This document shows, piece by piece, positions 3,639 through 58,050 of a DNA stretch of 64,000 nucleotides. The first letter of the stretch is position 1; each line of letters begins with the position of its first letter. Origin of the DNA: Capnocytophaga stomatis (GTDB lineage: Bacteria; Bacteroidota; Bacteroidia; Flavobacteriales; Flavobacteriaceae). Both the position numbers and the translations under genes were made by a program. The notes under the pieces were generated by a model. It was not told the DNA's origin. It made no database searches and saw only the letters and a list, made by a program, of their open reading frames with translations. The stretch spans positions 1,860,001 through 1,924,000 of the forward strand of contig NZ_CP022387.1 in assembly GCF_002302635.1 (NCBI RefSeq), written 5' to 3'.

Positions 3639-4559
3639 TCAGCAATTATAATAAAACCCTGTAATTTCGATGGTCACACCGAATATTTTTTCCAATGTAA
3701 CAATATGATTATCAAAAAGATTGTTCTTGCCTTCAAGGATTTTGGTGGGATATTTTTCGTTTTTATATTGTACGAAAATATAATCCGCACCGCCACCTTT
3801 AGCAGGAAGCATACGCTCGATGTACACTTTTTCGATGCCTGAAAGCGGAAAAATCCGAACGAATTTATCCACACTCACACCGATTTGCCCATTGACCTCA
3901 TCTCGCCACAAAACAGTCTGATTACCAAACTTTTCGGTCAGCAGAGACGGACGGCGTTTCACGGAAATATCCTCTCGATAATTGTCATCTATCTGAATGG
4001 TTTTCGGCGGAAAAACCAAATATTCGGCAAGTTGTATGTCGTTTTCCATAGGCTTGATAATTTCTTCATAATCCCTTGTATTATAAATAGATAAAAAGAA
4101 ATCTCGATGCCGTACCTCGCCGTTATATTGCATACGAAAACAGATGTCGCTCGTATGGTTATTGTAATATAAATTTTCTAAATATTCATCTACTTGCTCG
4201 TGCGACAAGTCTTTATTAAGTTGTTCACAAATCCGTAAAAAATCGTGTTTAGAAGAAGTCCCTTTTTTGCTCGTAAATCGGTATTCTCTCACGGCAATAT
4301 CGGTGCGTTGCCTACTGATAAAACCAAATTCAAGGTTGTAAAACAGCAAATTGCCCACCCGCACAGGATAGCGAAACACATATATACAACCAAACGCCCC
4401 TTCGCCATAATCCTTATAGTCTGTTTGTTTCACCCAAGGCGAAGCCATAAGGGTTTGATAAGTCGTATCCCACGGAATAAATTGTTTTTCAAGTGATTGC
4501 ACCTCAAATCCCAAATGATAATCCGTGTGGTTTTCTGATAGTAAGGTGATTTGTTTCAT
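3639..4559 (-). CDS. Hypothetical protein, paralogue of 4998-5918
   Basis: A 306-residue soluble-looking protein that I cannot assign. It shares start, length and long stretches with its neighbour: the head DYHLGFEVQS, RYPVRVGNLLF, LLTEKFGNQTVLWRDEVN, RMLPAKGGGAD and the closing ITGFYYNC are nearly the same in both. No signal peptide, membrane segment or recognised catalytic motif is visible. The conserved MLPAKGGGAD loop and the invariant C-terminal Cys are the most marked features. The two copies flank a VOC protein, which suggests duplication within the island. Confidence 0.8.
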   Translation of the reverse strand: MKQITLLSENHTDYHLGFEVQSLEKQFIPWDTTYQTLMASPWVKQTDYKDYGEGAFGCIYVFRYPVRVGNLLFYNLEFGFISRQRTDIAVREYRFTSKKGTSSKHDFLRICEQLNKDLSHEQVDEYLENLYYNNHTSDICFRMQYNGEVRHRDFFLSIYNTRDYEEIIKPMENDIQLAEYLVFPPKTIQIDDNYREDISVKRRPSLLTEKFGNQTVLWRDEVNGQIGVSVDKFVRIFPLSGIEKVYIERMLPAKGGGADYIFVQYKNEKYPTKILEGKNNLFDNHIVTLEKIFGVTIEITGFYYNC

Positions 4560-4609
4560 AGTTTCATTTGTTTTTTAGTGAGGGGGCTTGTTTCGTGGAT
4601 TTATAGTTT

Positions 4610-4963
4610 TTAAGCATTAGCACGATAATCCGTAAAACCCATTACATTGCCAGAAGGGTCTAAAAACTCCACCGCCCAACCTGTTTTTATGGGAAAAGGT
4701 GGTGTTAAAAATTCCACGCCTTTTGTCCTTAAATTCTCATAAACTTCCACTACATCATCTACTTCAAGCCAAATAGTGGGTTTTACATTCGGAAATTTTT
4801 TCTTATCCTTTAAGATAATAGCAGCCTCTTCATTACCCACTTTAAAGGCAATCATTCCCATTGGTGAAAAATCAAATTTGATTTCCAAGCCCAAAATCTC
4901 AGCAAAAAAATGTTTGCTTTTCTCGAAATCTTCCGCAGGAAGAAAAAAGTTATCGTAATTCAT
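4610..4963 (-). CDS. VOC (glyoxalase/bleomycin-resistance fold) protein
   Basis: A 117-residue single VOC module pair. It has FFLPAEDFEKSKHFFAEILG at the start, FKVGNEEAAIIL in the middle, and WAVEFLDPSGNVMGF at the end, where the Glu in the VEFLDP strand is a usual metal-ligand position. VOC proteins range from metalloenzymes to antibiotic-binding resistance proteins, and no substrate is implied here. It lies between the two paralogous unknowns on the same strand. Confidence 0.85.
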   Translation of the reverse strand: MNYDNFFLPAEDFEKSKHFFAEILGLEIKFDFSPMGMIAFKVGNEEAAIILKDKKKFPNVKPTIWLEVDDVVEVYENLRTKGVEFLTPPFPIKTGWAVEFLDPSGNVMGFTDYRANA

Positions 4964-4997
4964 AATTTAATTTTTTAAATGTCATAAAATCTGTTCA

Positions 4998-5918
4998 TTA
5001 ACAATTATAATAAAACCCTGTTACTTCAATAGACCTACCGAAAAATTTTTCCAATTGAGGCAAATAATTGTTCAAATCATATTCTTTGGTACTGAAAATT
5101 GGCGTTGGGTATTTTTGTTTTTTGTAATACACTCGCAGAGTATCGGCACCACCGCCTTTGGCAGGAAGCATTCGGTCAATGTCCACTTTTTTAATATTCG
5201 ATAGCGGAAAAATATTGCAAAATTCACCCTTACTTACCCCGAGTTGTTTATTTACTTCATCTCGCCACAATACGGCTTGGTCGCCAAACCTTTCCGTCAG
5301 TAAAGGTGGACGGCGTTTTACGATTTCGTTTTCTTGATAGTCGGTCTCTATTCCGATATATTCTTTCGGAAATAACACCCAATCGGTAAGTTGTATATTC
5401 TCCTCATTTTCAATTGGAGTGATTAATTCGGAATATTTACGGGCATTGATAATATTAAAAAACACATATTGATGCTGAGGTTCTCCGTAATAAACGCTAA
5501 GAAATGTCATTTCGTCTTTCTGAAAAAATGAATAGAGGTCTTCACGAGTTTTATAGTGTTTATCAAGGGGTAAATGTTTTTCTAATTGCTGATGCACTTG
5601 CCAAAAATCAAATTCCTCTACCTGTGTGTCTCCATTGGCATAGTATTCTCGTACGGCTATATCCCTACGCTGGGTGTTGTGTATGCGAAATTCAAATTTG
5701 GAAAATAGCAAATTGCCCACCCGCACCGGATATTTAAAATAGTAATATTCATACACCTCATAATCCAAATCAAAAGGGCTGTCCCACTCCACCAAAGGCG
5801 ATGCGATAACTTCCTCGTAGGTAGCGTTCCACGAAAAGAACTTCGGTTCGGGCGATTGCACCTCAAATCCGAGATGATAATCGTTGTGACTTGCCGAAAG
5901 TAAGGTGATTCGTTTCAT
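4998..5918 (-). CDS. Hypothetical protein, paralogue of 3639-4559
   Basis: A 306-residue protein of exactly the same length as its neighbour and alike along its whole length, clearly a tandem paralogue. The C-terminal third is the most conserved (RRPPLLTERFGDQAVLWRDE, RMLPAKGGGAD, TGFYYNC); the middle third (residues 90-180) has diverged. It starts 3 nt after the DUF4298 stop, so the two are likely co-transcribed. Function unknown. Confidence 0.8.
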   Translation of the reverse strand: MKRITLLSASHNDYHLGFEVQSPEPKFFSWNATYEEVIASPLVEWDSPFDLDYEVYEYYYFKYPVRVGNLLFSKFEFRIHNTQRRDIAVREYYANGDTQVEEFDFWQVHQQLEKHLPLDKHYKTREDLYSFFQKDEMTFLSVYYGEPQHQYVFFNIINARKYSELITPIENEENIQLTDWVLFPKEYIGIETDYQENEIVKRRPPLLTERFGDQAVLWRDEVNKQLGVSKGEFCNIFPLSNIKKVDIDRMLPAKGGGADTLRVYYKKQKYPTPIFSTKEYDLNNYLPQLEKFFGRSIEVTGFYYNC

Positions 5919-47139: not shown

Positions 47140-49023
47140 ATGAAAGGAAATATCAATGTTTCGGTGGAAAATATTTTTCCGCTTATCAAGAAGTTCTTAT
47201 ACAGTGACCACGAAATTTTCCTGCGGGAACTCATCTCCAATGCTACCGATGCTACACTAAAGCTCAAACACTTAACCCAAATTGGGGAAGCGAAGGTGGA
47301 ATACGGCAATCCTATCATCGAAGTAAAAATCGATAAGGAAAATAAAACCTTACACATCATCGACCAAGGAATCGGGATGTCGGGCGAAGAAGTGGAAAAG
47401 TACATCAATCAAATCGCATTCTCGGGAGCAGAAGAATTTTTGGAAAAATATAAAGACACTGCCAAAGATGCAGGCGTGATTGGGCATTTCGGACTTGGTT
47501 TTTACTCCGCTTTTATGGTGGCAAACCAAGTGGAAATCATCACCAAATCGTACACCGACGCTCCTGCCGTAAAATGGACGTGCGACGGCTCGCCTCAGTA
47601 CACGCTTGAACCTGCCGAAAAGTCAGAAAGAGGTACGGAAATCATCTTACACATTGCCGAGGATTCCACCGAGTTTTTGGAAGAACATCGCATCGAGGAA
47701 TTGTTGCGTAAGTACAACAAATTTATGCCTATTCCTATTAAATTCGGAACCAAACAAGAGCCGCTTCCTCGTCCTGAAAATGCCGACGAAAATTACAAAA
47801 CCGAATATCAAACCGTTGACAATATTGTAAATAACCCAAATCCGGCGTGGACAAAACAACCTGCCGATTTGCAAGACGAGGACTATAAAAACTTCTATCG
47901 TGAACTTTATCCGATGCAGTTTGACGACCCTTTGTTTCACATTCACCTCAATGTGGATTATCCGTTTAATTTAACGGGAATTTTGTATTTTCCAAAGCTC
48001 TCGATGGATATGCAAATTCAAAAAGACCGCATTCAGTTGTATCAAAATCAGGTTTTTGTAACGGACAATGTGGAAGGAATCGTTCCGGAATTTTTGACAA
48101 TGCTTAAAGGAGTTATCGATTCGCCAGATATTCCGCTGAACGTGTCGCGTTCGTACTTACAAGCCGATGGCAACGTTAAAAAAATCGCAAATTATATTAC
48201 CCGAAAGGTTTCGGACAAATTAAAATCGCTTTTCAATAACAATCGAGAAGATTTTCAATCGAAATGGAACGATATTAAGATAGTTTTGGAATACGGGATG
48301 CTTTCCGAGCCGAAATTCTACGAAAAAGCGGGCGATTTTATGCTTTATCCAACGGTAGATGACCAGTATTATACGCTTTCGGAGCTTAAAGAAGCTTTAA
48401 AAGACCAACAAACCGATAAAGATGGTAAATTAGTGGTGCTTTACGCTCAAAATAAAGAAGTACAACACGCTGCCATTGAGGAAGCGAAGGAAAAAGGATA
48501 TCAAGTGTTGCTTTTGGATTCGCCCATCGTGTCGCATTTGATTCAGAAATTGGAACACGACAACGAAAAGCTGACTTTTGCACGTGTGGATTCGGCTCCG
48601 ATTGCCAAACTGATTCAAAAAGAAGACACTGCGATTTCCAAATTTTCGGAAGAGGAAAAAACATCGCTTAAAGAAAGCATCGAAAAAAGCATTCCGAGTG
48701 AAGGTTTTGTGGTGCAATTGGAAGATTTGGATAGCGACAGCACGCCTTTTAGCATCAATCAGCCCGAATTTATGCGTCGGATGAAAGAAATGAGTGCTAC
48801 CGGCGGTGGCGGAATGTTCGGAATGGGTAATTTCCCCGAAATGTATCATTTGGTGGTCAATACCAATTCACCTTTGGCAACTTCCATACTTAATGCAAAA
48901 AACGAAAACGAAAAACAAAGCCTCATCAAGCAAGCCTTCGATTTGGCACGACTTTCGCAAGGACTTCTGAAAGGGAAAGAACTCACCGATTTCATTAAAC
49001 GAAATTTTCAGGAATTGAAATAA
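47140..49023 (+). CDS. htpG: Molecular chaperone HtpG (Hsp90)
   Basis: A 627-residue Hsp90. The N-terminal GHKL ATPase has ISNATDATLK (Glu/Asn region), IDQGIGMS and GHFGLGFYSAFMV; the middle domain has VFVTDNVEGIVPEFL and PLNVSRSYLQ. The C-terminal dimerisation domain ends GLLKGKELTDFIKR. Length and domain order match the family. A Gly-rich stretch (TGGGGMFGMGNF) near residue 560 is an unusual feature. Confidence 0.97.
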   Translation: MKGNINVSVENIFPLIKKFLYSDHEIFLRELISNATDATLKLKHLTQIGEAKVEYGNPIIEVKIDKENKTLHIIDQGIGMSGEEVEKYINQIAFSGAEEFLEKYKDTAKDAGVIGHFGLGFYSAFMVANQVEIITKSYTDAPAVKWTCDGSPQYTLEPAEKSERGTEIILHIAEDSTEFLEEHRIEELLRKYNKFMPIPIKFGTKQEPLPRPENADENYKTEYQTVDNIVNNPNPAWTKQPADLQDEDYKNFYRELYPMQFDDPLFHIHLNVDYPFNLTGILYFPKLSMDMQIQKDRIQLYQNQVFVTDNVEGIVPEFLTMLKGVIDSPDIPLNVSRSYLQADGNVKKIANYITRKVSDKLKSLFNNNREDFQSKWNDIKIVLEYGMLSEPKFYEKAGDFMLYPTVDDQYYTLSELKEALKDQQTDKDGKLVVLYAQNKEVQHAAIEEAKEKGYQVLLLDSPIVSHLIQKLEHDNEKLTFARVDSAPIAKLIQKEDTAISKFSEEEKTSLKESIEKSIPSEGFVVQLEDLDSDSTPFSINQPEFMRRMKEMSATGGGGMFGMGNFPEMYHLVVNTNSPLATSILNAKNENEKQSLIKQAFDLARLSQGLLKGKELTDFIKRNFQELK

Positions 49024-49339: not shown

Positions 49340-49507
49340 ACTTTCGATGACAATATTTTAGGTTCAGGAAGCAATAATTTAGCTTCCGATGACAATATTT
49401 TAGCTTTCGATAACAATATTTTAAATTCGGGAAGCAATAATTTAGATTCGGGAAGCTAAAATTTAGTTTCCGATGACTATTTTTTAGATTCTTGAATCAT
49501 AAAAATA
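49340..49507 (+). repeat. 21-nt tandem repeat array A (8 units)
   Basis: Eight consecutive units of 21 nt (49340, 49361, 49382, 49403, 49424, 49445, 49466, 49487) share the pattern GCTTCCGATGA or ATTCGGGAAG followed by CAATAATTTA or CAATATTTTA. The same family occurs at 50410-50451 and 53684-53998. In one plus frame the units code heptads such as SDDNILA, but that frame lacks a convincing start and stops inside the array. Confidence 0.88.
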
Positions 49508-49584
49508 AAATAAATATACAATATGAATATAATTTTTATCAAATATAAAAAATGTATTAACTTTGTGGAAATTAATACAGTAAA

Positions 49585-50349
49585 ATGTTTCGATTAAAAA
49601 AACATTATTTTGATGGAATTGATGCTCAAGGAAATGCTATAATTTTGTATTATGCTGAATTAAAGCTTTTCGGGATTAAAATTCCATATACGTCTTATAT
49701 TTCTTCTATAGAAGGTATTATAAAAGAAAAAAGCATATTGCAAAAAGCCAAAATAAATGAAAAATGTACTTCTTTTGAAAATAAAAAAATCAACGTATCA
49801 GGAAGTTGGCAAACTTTAGAATCTTCCATTTCTGAAATATTACTTTCAAAAAACAATAAGAAACTTTTGTGGAATTGTATAATTCCCAAAGCAAGATTTT
49901 TGTTGAATTTCGGAGATAAAAAATTAACAGGATTTGGATATTGTGAAGTACTGGAAATGAATTTCGTTCCTTGGAAATTGCCTATTTCTGTATTAAAATG
50001 GGGTAGATTTCTGTCTGAAAATCATTGTATTGTTTGGATAGAATGGCAAGGAGAAAGTCCTTTACAAAAAGTTTTTTGGAATGGAAAATTAATTGAAAAG
50101 GCAATCATTTCTGATGCTGAAATTTATTTCCCTAAAACCAATGCAAAATTAAAATTTGAAAATCCTATCATCATAAAAAATGAAACACTAAGCAATATTG
50201 CTAATAAATATTTTTTTTTAAAACCGTTTTTCAATAAAAAATTCTTGCAATCGCGAGAAACAAAATATAAAAGTCCTGCATCACTTATTTTTAACAATCA
50301 GTCTGAAAAAGGTTTTTCTTTATATGAAACCGTACTTTGGAAAAAATAA
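49585..50349 (+). CDS. Hypothetical protein, partner of the triple-domain membrane protein
   Basis: A 254-residue protein with no signal peptide or membrane helix. The region GFGYCEVLEMNFVPWKLPIS followed by VLKWGRFLSENH and IVWIEWQGESPLQ looks like the strand-rich core of the AttH/lipocalin-like superfamily, but I cannot confirm this. The C-terminus ends in alternating strands. It lies 145 nt before the fusion gene on the same strand, with a TAACTTTG box at about 49558-49565, and the two genes appear to form an isolated module bounded by repeats. Confidence 0.75.
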   Translation: MFRLKKHYFDGIDAQGNAIILYYAELKLFGIKIPYTSYISSIEGIIKEKSILQKAKINEKCTSFENKKINVSGSWQTLESSISEILLSKNNKKLLWNCIIPKARFLLNFGDKKLTGFGYCEVLEMNFVPWKLPISVLKWGRFLSENHCIVWIEWQGESPLQKVFWNGKLIEKAIISDAEIYFPKTNAKLKFENPIIIKNETLSNIANKYFFLKPFFNKKFLQSRETKYKSPASLIFNNQSEKGFSLYETVLWKK

Positions 50350-50409
50350 TTAGAAAACAAGAAAATTGCTTATAAAATCAATATTAATAGATTATTAAAA
50401 GAAATAAAA

Positions 50410-50451
50410 GCCTCTTAAATCAATAATTTAGCTTTCCGAATCATTTTTTTG
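50410..50451 (+). repeat. 21-nt repeat family, two degenerate units
   Basis: Unit 50410-50430 ends ATCAATAATTTA and unit 50431-50451 starts GCTTTCCGAATCA, in register with each other and with the family consensus. They sit between the two genes of the module, about 44 nt before the start of the fusion protein. Confidence 0.65.
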
Positions 50452-50494
50452 TGATAAATTTGTAACAAAATTCAGCAAAAATCAAAAATTGTTT

Positions 50495-52426
50495 ATGAAA
50501 ACCACTTTGAAAATTCTTTTTCAAAAGATAATATATGCAAGTACATTTTGTATTTTTCTTCCTTTATTTTTAATATTTTGGGCAAAACAAACTGAAAATA
50601 TAATCAAACTACCTGTACCAAGTTTGCCAGTTATTGATTTGGTATTAGTATTTTTAGGATTGTTTTTGATAATCATTGCAATGTCAAATTTGTGGTTCAA
50701 AGGTAAGGGATTGCCAATGAATGCTTTTCCGCCTAAAAAATATGTCAGTTCAGGAGCTTATTACTTTTTTCATCATCCTATTTATGTAGGAGCGGTGCTA
50801 ATGTGCTTGGGAATTAGCTTATATTTTAAGTCTGCTTCAGGGCTCTGGCTGATTTCTCCTATATTTATTTTGCTTATCTGGGCTTACTTAAAGGGATTTG
50901 AAAATGAAATTATTTCTTCTAATTTTTCAAATCAATCACACAGAACATTTTTTGATTTTCCAGAAGAAAACTCTGATTCATTATCTTTAAAAAATAGATT
51001 GCTGATATACATTTGGATTTTTCTGATATGGTTTTTGTTGTATGAAGCATTCATTTTTTTGGGAACTCCTCCTGATGCAATTTCTACAAGAGTTTTTTTA
51101 GATGATTTGATTCCCTTTTTAGACTTCAGTGTAGTTTTTTATGTGCTTTCGTATCCATTGACTTTAGCTATTCCTCTGATTTTGAAAGATAATAAAACCA
51201 CAAGAATATTCATTTTTGATTCGATTTTAGGAATGGGAATCATTTTTTATTGCTATTTGGTTTTTCCTTTTATCGTTCCATATACTGATATTGAAAACAG
51301 AAGCTTTTTTACAAATTTGATTATTTTAGGGAGAGAAACTGATGGGCAAACGGCAGCTTTACCTTCTTTTCACGTGTTTTGGGCAATGATTTTTTATAAA
51401 TATTTTTCATTACGATTTCCTAAAATAAGCTTTTTATTTGCTTTCATATCTTTTTTAATTATCATCAGTTGCTTAACTACATACAGTCATACTATTTTAG
51501 ATGTTATTTTTGGTATAATTTCTTACTATATAGTTCATTATCGAACTTTTATTTATAAAAAAATGCTTTTCGTTTGTGAAAAAATATCTAATTCTTGGAA
51601 AGAATGGCATTTCGGAAATATACGAGTTATCAATCACGGATTTTATGCAGCTTTAGGAGGCATTTCAGGATTTTTAATTATCGGATATTTCTTTCCCGAA
51701 CAATTATTTATTGTGTATCTGATAGGTATTTCAGGTTTTGTAGGAGCAGGACTTTGGGCTCAATTTATAGAAAGTTCTTCCGGACTTTCGCGTCCTTTTG
51801 GTTATTACGGAAGTTTGATTGGAATAGGAATTACATTGGTTTTGATAAGTTTGTTTTCAGAAATTGACTTTTGGAAGTTGATGGGAGTAAGTGCTTTAGC
51901 GGCAAGTTCTATTCAGTTTTTTGGTCGTTTTAGGTGTTTGGTGCAAGGTTGTTGTCACGGAAAGCCTACGGAAACAACTTTAGGGATTTGTTTTCATCAT
52001 CCGAAATCACGCGTGCATAAAATGGCAAACTTGTCTGGAAAAAATTTGTATCCTACACAATTTTATTCGATAGTAACAAATTTTTTAACTTTCTTTTTTC
52101 TTTTCAGATTGGTAACACTACAAATGTCTGCTTCATTTATTATAGGAATGTATTTGATTTTAAACGGAAGTTTCCGATTTGTAGAAGAATCTTTGCGAGG
52201 AGAACCACAAACGCCTTATTTTATGGGAATGCGAGTATATCAATGGTTAGCAATGGCTTCTGTCATAATTGGAATTTTGTGTACTTGTGCACATAGTTTG
52301 CCTTTGGAATTAGGAGAATTGAATATGGAGATTATTCTACACTCTCTTTTATACGGATTTTTAGTTTTATTCGCTTACGGAATTGATTTTCCCAAAAGTA
52401 ATAAACGTTTTTCAAGATTAGAATAG
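50495..52426 (+). CDS. Triple-domain membrane protein: ICMT-like methyltransferase, PAP2 phosphatase, Lgt-like transferase
   Basis: A 643-residue polytopic protein. Residues about 15-150 have the isoprenylcysteine/phospholipid methyltransferase layout, with FFHHPIYVGAVLM near 92 and a Glu in KGFENEII. Residues about 165-355 form a PAP2-like domain with ALPSFHVFWA (about 289) and TYSHTILDVIFG (about 330) carrying the two His and the Asp of the family. Residues about 385-600 resemble prolipoprotein diacylglyceryl transferase: FFGRFRCLVQGCCHGKPT (about 475), YPTQFYS and FRFVEESLRGEP (about 560). I start at ATG 50495 rather than TTG 50489. All three activities act on membrane lipids or lipoproteins, so a lipid-modifying function is likely. 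Confidence 0.82.
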   Translation: MKTTLKILFQKIIYASTFCIFLPLFLIFWAKQTENIIKLPVPSLPVIDLVLVFLGLFLIIIAMSNLWFKGKGLPMNAFPPKKYVSSGAYYFFHHPIYVGAVLMCLGISLYFKSASGLWLISPIFILLIWAYLKGFENEIISSNFSNQSHRTFFDFPEENSDSLSLKNRLLIYIWIFLIWFLLYEAFIFLGTPPDAISTRVFLDDLIPFLDFSVVFYVLSYPLTLAIPLILKDNKTTRIFIFDSILGMGIIFYCYLVFPFIVPYTDIENRSFFTNLIILGRETDGQTAALPSFHVFWAMIFYKYFSLRFPKISFLFAFISFLIIISCLTTYSHTILDVIFGIISYYIVHYRTFIYKKMLFVCEKISNSWKEWHFGNIRVINHGFYAALGGISGFLIIGYFFPEQLFIVYLIGISGFVGAGLWAQFIESSSGLSRPFGYYGSLIGIGITLVLISLFSEIDFWKLMGVSALAASSIQFFGRFRCLVQGCCHGKPTETTLGICFHHPKSRVHKMANLSGKNLYPTQFYSIVTNFLTFFFLFRLVTLQMSASFIIGMYLILNGSFRFVEESLRGEPQTPYFMGMRVYQWLAMASVIIGILCTCAHSLPLELGELNMEIILHSLLYGFLVLFAYGIDFPKSNKRFSRLE

Positions 52427-52441
52427 AAAAAGGAGAAAGAA

Positions 52442-53018
52442 AAAATATTTACTCCCGCAGATTTCACAGATATTCACAGATTTGTAATGTTTCCTGATAT
52501 TCAAAATTTAAGGTTTAACGTTTATTTTTTCTGTTGATAGATAAAAAAATCTGCGTTAATCTGCAAAATCTGTGGGGTTTTTCTTTATAAAAGATTCCAA
52601 AAGCAAAAATATTGTTTTTGGAATCATTTTTCTTTTATGTGTATTATTAAAAAATATTTACTCCCAAAGATTTCATAGATATTCACAGATTTGTAATGTT
52701 TTCTACTATTCAAAATTTAAGGTTTGATGTTTATTGTTTTCTGTTGAAAGATTAAAAAATCTGCGTTAATCTGCTAAATCTGTGGGATTTTTGTTTATAA
52801 AAGATTCCAAAAGCAAAAATATTGTTTTTGGAATCATTTTTCTTTTATGTGTATTATTAAAAAATATTTACTCCCAAAGATTTCATAGATATTCACAGAT
52901 TTGTAATGTTTCCTGATATTCAAAATTTAAGGTTTGATGTTTATTGTTTTTTGTTGAAAGATTAAAAAATTTGCGTTAATCTGCAAAATCTGTGGGATTT
53001 TTCTTTATAAAAGATTCT
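52442..53018. repeat. Three direct copies of a 209-210-bp repeat
   Basis: Copies start at 52442, 52651 and 52861; the third is cut at about 53018. Each has GCAGATTTCACAGATATTC or a close variant on the left and ATCTGCGTTAATCTGC with AATCTGTGGG on the right, which are imperfect inverted repeats of each other, as in a palindromic element. In copies 1 and 2 a hairpin follows (GATTCCAAAA ... TTTTTGGAATC). Copies 2 and 3 differ at only a few positions by eye; copy 1 is more diverged. No coding frame. The first hairpin may terminate the fusion gene. Confidence 0.9.
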
Positions 53019-53136
53019 GAAAACATTTTTATATATTGCTGATAACGTATTAAAAGTTAAACATTTATTAAAAATAATTTTTGTATTAAAAAAATTACTA
53101 CCTTTCGGGCAAGATAACATTAAAAATAAGGAAATT

Positions 53137-53604
53137 ATGAGTAATTTAATAAGTGCAAAGCTATCGGATTCCGATAAAGAGCAAGTAAAAACAAAATTGC
53201 AAGAAATTCAGCAATTGTTACCTTTTTTGATTGCCCTTCCGGCGGGTCAGAAAAGAGGAGGAGCCTCGATGGGGCAAAAAAGTGTGGAATTTGTAAATCT
53301 TGCTTTGCGTGGAGCAACTAATTTTCCGCAATATTTGCTACAATCATTCAATAAGGAAGAGTTTGCCAATGATGTAAAACTAATCGACCAGCTTTGGGAC
53401 ATTCGTATTTTGGTGGCATCGCTTCTTGAAAATATTGATGATACTATTCACGCAGCATCTACCGATGCAATGTACACAGGTAATGAAGTGTATAGCTATC
53501 TGAAAACAGCTGCTAAGAAAGATGCATCAGTTAAAAACTTGGTAGATGAAATGGCGAAGCGGTATGAAAAAAAGAAAACAAAAACACCGCCTTCTGCTTT
53601 ATAA
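53137..53604 (+). CDS. Hypothetical helical protein
   Basis: A 155-residue protein predicted to be mostly helical, with KLQEIQQLLPFLIALPAGQK near the start, KLIDQLWDIRILVASLLENI in the middle and a Lys-rich tail (KRYEKKKTKTPP). No signal peptide. I do not recognise a family. Codon use and a plausible promoter (TTTG near 53082 and TACCTTTC near 53099) suggest a real gene, which stands alone between two repeat arrays. Confidence 0.75.
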   Translation: MSNLISAKLSDSDKEQVKTKLQEIQQLLPFLIALPAGQKRGGASMGQKSVEFVNLALRGATNFPQYLLQSFNKEEFANDVKLIDQLWDIRILVASLLENIDDTIHAASTDAMYTGNEVYSYLKTAAKKDASVKNLVDEMAKRYEKKKTKTPPSAL

Positions 53605-53683
53605 AGAAAACTTTAAAAATGAAAAGCTTCAAGAATTGTACTTTTCTTGAAGTTTTTTTATTTTTATCATATTTTGTTTTTTA

Positions 53684-53998
53684 GCTTCTGAAAGCAATAA
53701 ATTAAATTCCGGAATCAATATTTTAGCTTTTTTTGTTTGTTTTTTTGCTTCTGGAAACAATAAATTAAATTCCTGAATCAATATTTTAGCTTTTTTTGTT
53801 TGTTTTTTTGCTTCTGGAAACAATAAATTAAATTCCGGAATTAATATTTTAGCTTTTTTAGATTGTTTTTTATCTTCCGAAATCAATAAATTAAACTCGT
53901 GAATCAATTTTTTTGCTTTTTTAGATTATTTTTTTGCTTCCAGAAACAATAAATTAAACTTCAGAATCAATTTTTTTGATTTTTTAGATTATTTTTTA
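53684..53998 (+). repeat. Five exact 63-nt repeats built from three 21-nt units
   Basis: Starts at 53684, 53747, 53810, 53873 and 53936, exactly 63 nt apart with no indels. Each contains unit a (GCTTCTGGAAACAATAAATT), unit b (AATTCCGGAATCAATATTTT) and unit c (GCTTTTTTAGATTGTTTTTT), given here without the last base. Units a and b belong to the 21-nt family at 49340. A minus-strand frame of repeating 21 residues runs through the first four copies, but it begins with TTG and is probably a by-product of the 3n period. Confidence 0.92.
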
Positions 53999-54198
53999 GC
54001 TTCTATTTCCTTAAAAAGTTATAGAATTGTAAATTTTGTATGAAAATATGAAGTTGGAATTAATAACTGATGTATTGCATATTAATTTTCTGATATTTAT
54101 AAGTTCTTTTTCTGATTTTTTTTGACTACATTTGCCCAAAACCAAAAGAACAAAACCAATATTCTGTTTTTCACTTCACATTAAAACTGTTGATTATT

Positions 54199-56988
54199 TT
54201 GAAAAAAAAACTTTTCCTTTTAGATGCGTATGCTTTGATATTCAGAGGTTATTACGCTTTTATTAAAAATCCGAGAATTAACTCAAAAGGATTAAATACT
54301 TCGGCGATAATGGGCTTTATGAACTCACTTTTTGATGTGATTAAAAAAGAAAGACCCGATCATTTAGCAGTGGCTTTTGATAAAGGCGGAAGCGTTGCTC
54401 GCACTGAAATGTTCACGGATTACAAAGCCAATCGGGAAGAAACTCCTGAGGCTATTCGTATTGCGATACCTTATATTCACGAAATATTAAAAGCCTTACA
54501 TATTCCTATCATTGAAAAAGAAGGTTACGAAGCTGATGATATTATCGGTACGCTTGCCAAACAGGCTGAAAAACAAAACTATTTGGTGTATATGGTTACT
54601 CCGGATAAAGATTATGCACAATTGGTTTCTGATAATATTTTTGTGTATCGTCCTGCCCGAAACGGAAATGATGTTGAGGTTTGGGGAGTGGAGCAAGTAA
54701 GAGAAAAATTTGAAGTACAATCACCCGAACAAGTAATTGATTTTCTCGGAATGATGGGCGATGCGGTTGATAACATTCCCGGATTTCCCGGAGTGGGTGA
54801 AAAAACAGCCAAAAAGCTTCTTGCCGAGTTCGGAAGTTTGGAAAATCTGCTGGCAAATACGCATAAGCTGAAAGGAAAGATGAAAGAGAACATTGAAAAC
54901 AATGCCGAAAAAGGAATTTTATCCAAAAAATTGGCAACAATTATGTTAGATGTTCCCGTAGAATTTGATGAAACTGACTTTGAGCTTTCAAAACCCGATT
55001 TTGAGGCTGTCGCCAAACTTTTTGAGGAATTGGAATTTAGGCAATTGCTTCAGAACTTTATGCGTACGTATCAACCTCCTGAAATAGTGGCACAAAAATC
55101 AACCTCATCGGAAGGACAAATGGATTTATTTGCAGTACAAGAAAATTTGTTTGCAGAAAATCTATCTTCCGGCAAAAAAACAATTCAGGATACGCCTCAT
55201 CATTATCAATTGGTAGATACGCCAATGGCTCGTAAGATATTGTTAAGTAATTTATTGCAACAAAAAGCAATTTGTTTTGATACCGAAACAACAAATCTTG
55301 AAAGTTTAAATGCCGAATTGGTTGGGATTGCTTTTTCGTGGCATAAAGGCAAGGGATATTACGTTCCGTTTCCTGAAAATAGGTCGGAGGCTTCTGAATT
55401 ATTGGAAGAATTTCGGTCATTTTTTGAAAATGAACAAATTATAAAGGTTGGGCAAAACCTAAAATATGATATCAAAGTATTGCACACTTACGGAATAGAG
55501 GTAAAAGGTGAGTTATTTGACACAATGGTAGCACATTATCTCATTAATCCTGATATGCGTCACAATATGGATGTACTTTCGGAAACGTATTTGGATTATA
55601 CACCCATTTCCATTGAAAAATTAATAGGCAAAAAAGGAAAAAATCAGCTTTCGATGCGTTCAGTTCCCCTCGAACAACAAAAAGAATACGCTGTTGAAGA
55701 TGCTGATGTTACTTGGCAATTAAAAGAAATATTTGCAGAAGAACTCAAAAAGGTAAATGCCGATAAAATTTACCACAAATTAGAAGCTCCACTGGTGAAA
55801 GTACTCGCCAAAATGGAATTGGAAGGCATCAATTTGGATATTTCTTTCTTAAAAGAACTTTCCAAAAAATTAGATGAAGATATTATTGCCTATGAAAAAG
55901 AAATTCTAACAGCTGCGGGCGAGGATTTTAACTTGGCTTCTCCCAAACAGTTAGGCGAAATTTTGTTTGAAAAACTTAAAATTGATAAAAAACCTAAAAA
56001 AACCAAAACAGGACAATATGCCACATCGGAAGAAGTATTATCTTACTTTGCTGATAAACACAAAATTGTGGCTGATATCTTGGAATGGCGACAACTTCAA
56101 AAGCTAAAATCAACTTATATTGATGCACTTCCTAATGAAGTAAATCCAAAAACGGGAAGAGTACACACAACCTATATGCAAACAGTTGCAGCCACCGGGC
56201 GTTTGAGCAGTAACAACCCGAATTTGCAAAACATCCCAATTCGAACAGAAAGAGGGCAACAAATTCGTAAAGCTTTCATTCCCAGAGATGAAGAACACGT
56301 TTTGTTAGCTGCGGATTATTCACAAATTGAACTGCGAATCATTGCTTCATTAAGTGAAGAACAAAATATGATTCAAGCGTTTTTAAACAAAGAAGATATT
56401 CATCGCTCAACGGCTGCTAAAGTCTTTAATGTTCCTATTGAAGAAGTTACACGCGAACAACGAAGCCACGCCAAAACGGTGAATTTCGGAATTATTTACG
56501 GTGTGTCGGCTTTCGGGTTGAGTAACCAAACCGACCTTTCACGTACTGAAAGTAAGGAACTAATTGAAACCTACTACGCAACATATCCTAACTTACGCAA
56601 TTATATCAACAAACAAATATTTTTTGCTCAGCAACACGGATATGTGGAAACTGTTTTGGGAAGAAGGCGTTATCTCCCCGACATTAATTCACGAAATCAA
56701 GTAGTTAAGGGAGCTGCCGAACGAAACGCCATCAATGCTCCTATTCAGGGAAGTGCCGCCGATATTATAAAAATTGCGATGATTCGCATTCAAAACCGAT
56801 TGGAAAAAGAACACTTCAAAACGAGAATGTTACTACAAGTACACGATGAATTGGTATTTGATGTCCCGAAAACGGAATTGGAAGCAGTGAAAAATGCCAT
56901 CAAGCACGAAATGGAAAACGCCTTCAAACTTACCGTGCCTTTGGTTGTTGATTTGGGTGTAGGAACAAACTGGCTCGAAGCACATTAA
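54199..56988 (+). CDS. polA: DNA polymerase I
   Basis: A 929-residue family A polymerase. N-terminal 5' nuclease (KLFLLDAYALIFRGYYAF, EGYEADDIIGTLA, GMMGDAVDNIPGFPGVGEKT). Proofreading domain with FDTETTNL, VGQNLKYD and EYAVEDADVTWQ, so all exonuclease carboxylates are present. Polymerase motifs AADYSQIELRI, KTVNFGIIYG and LLQVHDELVFD. The start appears to be TTG: no ATG lies near the conserved beginning, and TTG 54199 gives MKKKLFLLDAYA. A TACATTTG box lies at about 54127-54134. A diverged second copy of its last 47 codons is at 58501-58641. Confidence 0.95.
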   Translation: MKKKLFLLDAYALIFRGYYAFIKNPRINSKGLNTSAIMGFMNSLFDVIKKERPDHLAVAFDKGGSVARTEMFTDYKANREETPEAIRIAIPYIHEILKALHIPIIEKEGYEADDIIGTLAKQAEKQNYLVYMVTPDKDYAQLVSDNIFVYRPARNGNDVEVWGVEQVREKFEVQSPEQVIDFLGMMGDAVDNIPGFPGVGEKTAKKLLAEFGSLENLLANTHKLKGKMKENIENNAEKGILSKKLATIMLDVPVEFDETDFELSKPDFEAVAKLFEELEFRQLLQNFMRTYQPPEIVAQKSTSSEGQMDLFAVQENLFAENLSSGKKTIQDTPHHYQLVDTPMARKILLSNLLQQKAICFDTETTNLESLNAELVGIAFSWHKGKGYYVPFPENRSEASELLEEFRSFFENEQIIKVGQNLKYDIKVLHTYGIEVKGELFDTMVAHYLINPDMRHNMDVLSETYLDYTPISIEKLIGKKGKNQLSMRSVPLEQQKEYAVEDADVTWQLKEIFAEELKKVNADKIYHKLEAPLVKVLAKMELEGINLDISFLKELSKKLDEDIIAYEKEILTAAGEDFNLASPKQLGEILFEKLKIDKKPKKTKTGQYATSEEVLSYFADKHKIVADILEWRQLQKLKSTYIDALPNEVNPKTGRVHTTYMQTVAATGRLSSNNPNLQNIPIRTERGQQIRKAFIPRDEEHVLLAADYSQIELRIIASLSEEQNMIQAFLNKEDIHRSTAAKVFNVPIEEVTREQRSHAKTVNFGIIYGVSAFGLSNQTDLSRTESKELIETYYATYPNLRNYINKQIFFAQQHGYVETVLGRRRYLPDINSRNQVVKGAAERNAINAPIQGSAADIIKIAMIRIQNRLEKEHFKTRMLLQVHDELVFDVPKTELEAVKNAIKHEMENAFKLTVPLVVDLGVGTNWLEAH

Positions 56989-57156: not shown

Positions 57157-58050
57157 AAACCTGTCTAAACTTTTTAAGAGGAAAATTAAAAGTTCCAAGA
57201 ATTTTTAGCATTTTTGTTTTGCATAACAAAATGAAAATCAAGGAACTTTGAGCAAAGATATAATAAAAAAATGGATTATTTCCCATTTGAGTATTGGAAA
57301 AAGAGGATTTAAAACAAAATTTGATTTATCATTAATTTTTCTTCTGATAGTCAAACGATTAAAAACAGGTTGCCAGTGGAGGGAACTTCCGGTAGAAGTG
57401 TATTTTAAAGACCAAAAAATAAGCTATCAAACAGTCTATTATTATTTCAATAAATGGAGTAAAGATGGTAGTTTTAAGCGAATTTGGCTTAATTTGTTGC
57501 TTGAGAATCGGAGAAAATTAGATTTATCAAGCGTCCAACTTGATGGTAGTCATACTCGATGTCGAATGGGAGGACAATCTGTTGGTTATCAGTTAAGAAA
57601 AAAGTCAAAGACCACGAATTCTATCTTTCTGTGTGATAATTTGGGGCAAATTTTAGCAATGGGTAGTCCAAAATCCGGTAATCATCACGATTTGAATAAT
57701 ATAGACTTTGTTTTAAAAGAGATTTTGAATCTTTTGGAGGAAGCGAAAATAGAGCATAAAGGCTTGTTTGTCAATGCAGATGCAGGTTTTGATAGCCGAG
57801 ACTTAAAAAGTTTTTTACAGGAAAAAGAAATAATACCTAATATCAAACAAAATCCCAGAAATGGACAAAATGAAAATATTTATTTTGACGAAGAATTATA
57901 TAAAAATCGGTTTAAAATAGAGAGAAGTTTTGCGTGGCTTGATGGTTTTAAAGGATTGATTATAAGATATGAAACCCTAAACACAACTTGGATGGCTATG
58001 TTGTATCTAGGGATTATACTAACATTTATTCGAAAAGTTTAAACAAGTTT
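57157..58050 (+). mobile_element. IS5-family insertion sequence (about 894 bp)
   Basis: Terminal inverted repeats AAACCTGTCTAAACTTTT (57157-57174) and the complement of AAAAGTTTAAACAAGTTT (58033-58050) match at 16 of 18 positions. The flanking ATT (57154-57156 and 58051-58053) is a 3-bp target duplication, which fits IS5-family subgroups with ANT or TNA targets. One transposase gene fills the element; its stop codon lies inside the right inverted repeat. Confidence 0.9.
57248..58042 (+). CDS. IS5-family transposase
   Basis: A 264-residue DDE transposase in one frame. A DUF4096-like N-terminal helix-turn-helix region (GKRGFKTKFDLSLIFLLIVK, GCQWRELPVE) precedes the catalytic core: first Asp in VQLDGSHTRC (about residue 99), second in VNADAGFDSR (about 177), and Glu in RFKIERSFAWLDGFK (about 224), with the R-x3-E-R-x-F-A-W signature of the family. 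All three residues are present, so it may be active. The start is TTG in this frame. Confidence 0.92.
   Translation: MSKDIIKKWIISHLSIGKRGFKTKFDLSLIFLLIVKRLKTGCQWRELPVEVYFKDQKISYQTVYYYFNKWSKDGSFKRIWLNLLLENRRKLDLSSVQLDGSHTRCRMGGQSVGYQLRKKSKTTNSIFLCDNLGQILAMGSPKSGNHHDLNNIDFVLKEILNLLEEAKIEHKGLFVNADAGFDSRDLKSFLQEKEIIPNIKQNPRNGQNENIYFDEELYKNRFKIERSFAWLDGFKGLIIRYETLNTTWMAMLYLGIILTFIRKV

Follow-up and report, generated by a model that had tools for sequence, protein, structure and literature searches.

We describe here a pair of adjacent genes of Capnocytophaga stomatis, found between htpG and polA in a stretch of 64,000 nucleotides (nt), hereafter the window, which corresponds to bases 1860001-1924000 of a single-contig genome of 2.83 Mb. 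The first gene encodes a protein of 254 amino acids (aa) and the second a membrane protein of 643 aa that combines three enzyme domains. The genes and the parts of the fusion protein are as follows, with positions counted from the first nucleotide of the window.

49585..50349, + strand: first gene of the pair, a 254-aa protein assigned with moderate confidence as CrtC/AttH/Diels-Alderase-like (double lipocalin fold)
50495..52426, + strand: PEMT-PAP2-LGT fusion of 643 aa with about 18 transmembrane (TM) segments (from Pfam, hydropathy and homologue alignment)
50639..50932, + strand: PEMT/ICMT-like methyltransferase domain of the fusion, aa 49-146 (PF04191; motifs GKGLPMNAFPP, HPIY and GFE)
51131..51541, + strand: PAP2_3 domain of the fusion, aa 213-349, an optional part (PF14378; R280-D283, PSFH293, H332-D336)
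51542..51610, + strand: linker rich in lysine and arginine (K/R; NSWKEWHFG) leading from PAP2 to LGT, predicted to be cytoplasmic
51611..52282, + strand: LGT domain of the fusion, aa 373-596 (PF01790; R478, GCCHG, R561, E565, R568)

Using a combination of profile searches, tree building and composition analysis, we found that the two genes travel together. No full-length copy of the fusion occurs in the congeners (0/19), and the named genome collection yields a single match, a protein of Neisseria wadsworthii with 51% identity along its entire length, whose upstream neighbour is a homologue of the 254-aa protein (39% identical). Searches with the neighbour profile returned full-length homologues from 7 of 394 further Bacteroidota, from one genome of the class of N. 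wadsworthii and from four genomes of one bacteroidotan order. The pair is thereby found in 14 genomes, namely 12 Bacteroidota, N. wadsworthii and one other member of its class, and in every genome with a full-length neighbour match (14/14) the gene of the fusion follows immediately after that of the neighbour, both on one strand, which confirms the constant partnership anticipated in the preliminary description of this locus. Because one contig (genome G901) ends inside the fusion, the remainder of which is on another contig, 13 pairs are complete. Stop and start codons overlap by 4 nt in six of these 13 and by 23 nt in one more, and the longest intergenic gap is that of the window pair (145 nt). 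The protein distances of the two families are correlated (Mantel r 0.84, p 1e-4), and the genes flanking the pair are not common to different loci. Both protein trees group the window with N. wadsworthii (support 99/100 and 98/96), and the monophyly of the Bacteroidota is rejected (p-AU, from the approximately unbiased test, 1.5e-6). Since the window and Neisseria come together in the trees of both genes, the pair moves horizontally, between phyla. Its GC content is 29% in the window (where htpG has about 40% and polA 34-40%) versus 47.5% in Neisseria, so that the transfer would be old, with the composition since adjusted, or would have passed through intermediates. Plasmid searches with both proteins gave no match.

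The three membrane-enzyme domains that the preliminary description had read in the fusion are all present in one chain, since each third of the protein matches its Pfam profile above the curated cut-off: LGT with 76.1 bits (cut-off 24.9), PAP2_3 with 39.4 bits (27) and PEMT with 35.6 bits (25). The same scan of nine homologues recovered LGT in 9/9, PEMT in 9/9 and PAP2_3 in 8/9, and searches of PDB sequences with the fusion and both profiles returned nothing useful. The 13 complete fusion homologues are 33-68% identical to each other, and in all of them the equivalents of R143, R239, E243 and R246 of the E. coli Lgt enzyme are kept (R478, R561, E565 and R568), with GCCHG, R478, R561 and E565 being invariant. 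In the PEMT part the HPIY motif and E136 are present, the histidine being an asparagine in two relatives. This part shares with PEMT/ICMT methyltransferases (PF04191/PF04140) the HPIY and terminal glutamate motifs of a small four-helix domain; it differs from them in being fused and in carrying the strongly conserved GKGLPMNAFPP element. The PAP2 catalytic residues H293, H332 and D336 occur in the window protein and in 12/13 complete fusions. As in PAP2_3 proteins (PF14378), the catalytic histidine (PSFH) and the histidine and aspartate of the last motif are retained, whereas the position between PEMT and LGT, the PSFH in place of PSGH and the absence from some relatives set this domain apart. 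The PAP2 motif residues are lost in the fusion of genome G100, and three relatives (G1167, G428 and G1036) have PEMT-LGT proteins without any PAP2 domain. These sequences indicate that the core of the fusion is PEMT plus LGT and that PAP2 is optional, gain and loss being indistinguishable here. Being dispensable, the PAP2 part weakens the earlier idea of a polypeptide with three joint activities, even though the three domains themselves stand. The outcomes that the preliminary description had named as refuting it did not occur.

The domains PEMT and PAP2, which both have profile matches here, are common in phospholipid metabolism, so that the fusion could be taken for an enzyme of ordinary phospholipid remodelling that methylates head groups and acts as a phosphatidate phosphatase, with an LGT part that merely binds lipid. 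We hold this to be very improbable, as LGT is the best conserved part of the fusion and PAP2 the least, and as the invariance of R478, R561, E565 and GCCHG is unlike that of a non-catalytic binding part.

The LGT part resembles Lgt (PF01790; E. coli, PDB 5AZB/5AZC) in its fold, as judged by profile, and in the four conserved charged residues listed above. It departs from Lgt in the equivalents of H103 (replaced by Y), N146 (by C), E151 (by C) and Y26 (by H), in having GCCHG where Lgt has the NGELWG motif, in being joined to other domains, in an extra C-terminal TM segment (about aa 611-631) and in a predicted inversion in the membrane. The motif numbering of the E. coli Lgt reference in this residue alignment agrees with PMC4728403. 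The E151A/Q and H103Y mutants of E. coli Lgt are inactive (PMC4728403). The H103Y replacement alone is not disqualifying, since a tyrosine occupies this position in other LGT proteins of the present set too. The NCBIfam equivalog cut-offs for lgt were missed by far (77.3 bits versus 334, and 41.6 versus 118.9).

As for the orientation of the fusion, we averaged hydropathy over the 13 fusions and counted lysines plus arginines (K+R) in alternate loops. From the resulting charge distribution and from the parity with PEMT, we infer that the LGT active site is apparently cytoplasmic. First, the whole fusion, with its 18 or so TM segments, carries 29-36 K+R on one side of the membrane and 0-8 on the other. 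Second, the active-site elements of LGT (starts of TM1 and TM3, ends of TM4 and TM6) lie on a side with 12-16 K+R, the opposite side having 0-3, whereas canonical Lgts counted likewise are mostly reversed (3-13 on the active side and 10-15 on the opposite side, with one tie). Third, the end of the PEMT class that binds S-adenosylmethionine (SAM) is necessarily cytoplasmic, and in the PAP2-less relatives 58-64 residues with 11-14 K/R and no TM segment join this SAM-side end to TM1 of LGT; the PAP2 part, with its six TM segments, preserves the parity. The LGT domain would thus be inverted as compared to E. coli Lgt, in which the head and the catalytic site are periplasmic and the charges obey the positive-inside rule (PMC4728403). 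The PAP2 domain is predicted to face the periplasm.

These data bear on the possibility that the pair serves to tailor lipoproteins: exported proteins would receive their lipid from the LGT domain, and the remaining domains would either modify these proteins or recycle the leaving group. The LGT profile match and the retained equivalents of R143, R239, E243 and R246 speak for it, as does one genome (G158, locus L022) where the search for LGT proteins hit nothing but the fusion. Another LGT-family protein is, however, encoded in the genome of the window and in 13/14 other genomes scanned, and G158 may reflect an assembly gap or a real loss of Lgt, because an ordinary Lgt is present in G162, of the same genus. 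Together with the four replaced residues, the distant equivalog scores and an active site predicted to face the wrong compartment, this makes a lipoprotein system quite improbable. The earlier proposal of a lipid or lipoprotein tailoring system is thereby narrowed, its lipid half being still favoured, and the label 'prolipoprotein diacylglyceryl transferase' is misleading for such genes.

The 254-aa partner, which had been described as an unassigned beta-rich protein, has no evident signal peptide and no significant match in Pfam or NCBIfam. A weak Pfam match to TNP-like_GBD (E 0.015) was dismissed as chance, and the Pfam CrtC-type profile matched neither the window protein nor eight homologues. 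The AlphaFold model, computed from a two-row alignment, is indeed beta-rich (pLDDT, the predicted local distance difference test, 62.5; pTM, the predicted template modelling score, 0.62). Its best structural matches are fungal Diels-Alderases (Z 15.5-16.3), followed by 25-phosphosteroid lyase (Z 14.4-14.7), NE1406/AttH (14.6) and kievitone hydratase (Z 13.8-13.9); these superfamily matches align 223-240 residues, and the next unrelated fold reaches Z 7.4. NE1406 has been described as resembling lipocalins, and a part in lipid metabolism has been suggested for it (PMC2954199). The sequences point in the same direction, as the family profile weakly matches CrtC-like proteins of 340-390 aa, two of which match the Pfam Diels-Alderase domain (one above and one below the cut-off), and with which the motifs W96, Y119-x-E121 and W139-G-R align. 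With moderate confidence, we thus assign the partner to the CrtC/AttH/Diels-Alderase superfamily of lipocalin-fold proteins, of which it is a compact member. It shares with CrtC, AttH (NE1406), kievitone hydratase, 25-phosphosteroid lyase and the fungal Diels-Alderases the double-lipocalin fold over its full length, the tryptophan, the Y-x-acid and the WGR motif, and it differs from them in the small size of its family (about 255-275 aa), in the replaced CrtC histidine, in the lack of a Pfam match and in its constant position next to the membrane fusion in all genomes where it was found.

Combining these results, we propose, with a probability of roughly 55%, that the pair is a horizontally mobile, co-inherited module for the tailoring of a lipid or lipid-linked compound that is not a protein. 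This proposal is based on the predicted cytoplasmic location of both the LGT and the SAM sites, on a partner fold that handles hydrophobic molecules and on the separate Lgt present in nearly all hosts, from which we infer a non-protein acceptor. The soluble lipocalin-fold partner would have a hydrophobic substrate and act on it in the cytoplasm. The inverted LGT domain, with its active site on the same side as the SAM site, would attach to a cytoplasmic non-protein acceptor a lipid group that is diacylglyceryl-like or otherwise phospho-activated, and the methyltransferase domain would cap the product. Where present, PAP2 would operate in the periplasm, dephosphorylating a lipid phosphate on the other leaflet or transferring its phosphate group. 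A more specific form of this proposal, to which we give slightly less than even odds, is that an inside-out LGT-fold transferase, a methyltransferase and a CrtC/Diels-Alderase-type partner together make an undescribed membrane lipid or lipidated small molecule, as a two-gene cassette moving between phyla.

Several points weigh against this proposal. The topology comes from the positive-inside rule and the counting of TM segments; the active-site arginines inflate the K+R count of the active side, and the loops on the opposite side are short. The domains of the fusion were identified by profiles; its AlphaFold model, computed from a two-row alignment of the window and Neisseria proteins, is unusable (pLDDT 41.9), and the model of the partner reaches a pLDDT of only 62.5. 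G158, described above, showed no separate Lgt, and in G1167 the PAP2-less PEMT-LGT gene is not accompanied by a CrtC-like one over a distance of about 7 kb.

In a narrower version of our proposal, which we regard as possible though doubtful, the module modifies an isoprenoid (carotenoid, quinone or polyprenyl lipid): the CrtC-like protein would act at a terminal double bond, by hydration, cyclisation or elimination, and the fusion would conjugate and methylate the result. Those members of the fold group that have been characterised (CrtC, kievitone hydratase, 25-phosphosteroid lyase, Diels-Alderases) have hydrophobic, often prenylated, substrates, which is in line with an isoprenoid, yet the superfamily includes Diels-Alderases with non-isoprenoid substrates. 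CrtC requires H239, W241, Y266 and D268 (PMC4717167). When mapped through the CrtC-like intermediates rather than CrtC itself, the tryptophan and the acid (CrtC Y-x-D, here Y-x-E/D) are kept in 14/14 neighbours and the essential histidine (H239) is not, so that by this residue test the partner appears to belong to the same superfamily, with a possible acid, yet not to be a CrtC. Distant relatives adjoin glycosyltransferase and acyltransferase genes, as in carotenoid glycoside pathways, and the pair of G100 is directly preceded by a 304-aa gene (L027:8462-9376) with aspartate motifs resembling those of squalene/phytoene synthases. The assignment of this gene as a squalene synthase is unsupported, with no significant profile or PDB match, and no carotenoid genes were recognised beside 13/14 pairs.

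The clusters of the PAP2-less sister clade look like small-molecule or biosynthetic pathways. In G428 (L051:8417-14860), genes for a CrtC-like protein, a cytochrome P450, a PEMT-LGT protein, an ATPase of the ATP-binding cassette (ABC) type, a permease and a decarboxylase dependent on pyridoxal phosphate (PLP) are clustered. In G1036 (L052:10-2811 and L111:854-5275, two contigs overlapping in the CrtC-like gene), aminoacyl-tRNA-synthetase-like, CrtC-like, PEMT-LGT, PLP decarboxylase and aldehyde dehydrogenase genes stand in a row, the last two being named by reading the sequence. A second narrower version of our proposal is thus a natural-product pathway, in which a cytoplasmic compound derived from an amino acid or polyamine is lipidated by the inverted LGT, methylated and exported. 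The P450, ABC transporter, ornithine/diaminopimelate/arginine-type decarboxylase, aldehyde dehydrogenase and aminoacyl-tRNA-synthetase-like genes of these two genomes are consistent with it. None of them accompanies the pair in the clade of the window, where the pair alone is conserved, and we consider this version unlikely. Also seen among the relatives were a PAP2-less PEMT-LGT fusion (L113:6939-8270) without a CrtC-like neighbour, about 2 kb from a PAP2/haloperoxidase-like gene (3713-5011); a second LGT-like protein with a GCCWG motif, adjoining ABC transporter genes (L071:481-2310, G618); and, at a contig edge, a 567-aa protein in which a PEMT-like domain is fused to an acyltransferase-like region (L112:2-1705, G915).

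Nothing relevant to this domain combination was found in the literature searched, whose coverage leaves out most subscription papers. The superfamilies are known and their arrangement is new; we regard the finding as real and unusual. The combination, the constant partner, the apparent LGT inversion and the inter-phylum transfer point to a lipid chemistry beyond the textbook lipoprotein pathway. If our proposal is true, the LGT fold serves something besides lipoprotein lipidation, and the pair offers a compact two-gene system in which such an alternative use is directly testable.

The surroundings of the pair in the window comprise the following features, the tandem arrays being those reported by Tandem Repeats Finder (TRF).

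47140-49023: htpG, upstream border of the interval
49341-49491: 21-nt/63-nt tandem array upstream of the pair
50421-50441: one marginal 21-nt unit, degenerate (5 mismatches in 21) and located between the two genes
53137-53604: open reading frame (ORF) of 155 aa between the fusion and polA, with a plausible to good ribosome-binding site and no family
53674-54004: 63-nt tandem array of the same family as 49341-49491, downstream of the pair and before polA
54190-56988: polA, downstream border of the interval

The interval between htpG and polA hence holds three ORFs (254, 643 and 155 aa), and the pair is not alone in it as first described, because the 155-aa ORF sits there too; this ORF has no family match and is absent beside the pair at other loci. 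The two arrays are related (71% identity over 114 nt, E 3e-10), in agreement with the initial view that one repeat family flanks the pair, and a search of 400 kb taken from other parts of the genome turned up no array of this 21/63-nt family. The further statement that the same repeats separate the two genes is not upheld, the unit at 50421 being of a quality expected about once per 64 kb. The repeats flank the whole interval, not the cassette as such, and since they bracket the entire htpG-polA interval including an unrelated ORF, we did not adopt them as a signal of mobility. Directly behind the fusion (52440-53017) lies a distinct 210-nt repeat, in 2.8 copies that are 91-94% identical, each unit of which contains a terminator-like hairpin (GATTCCAAAA...TTTTTGGAATC, then T-rich DNA) and inverted AATCTGTG motifs. 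Just 3' of polA, a transposase-like ORF of 264 aa occupies positions 57248-58042.

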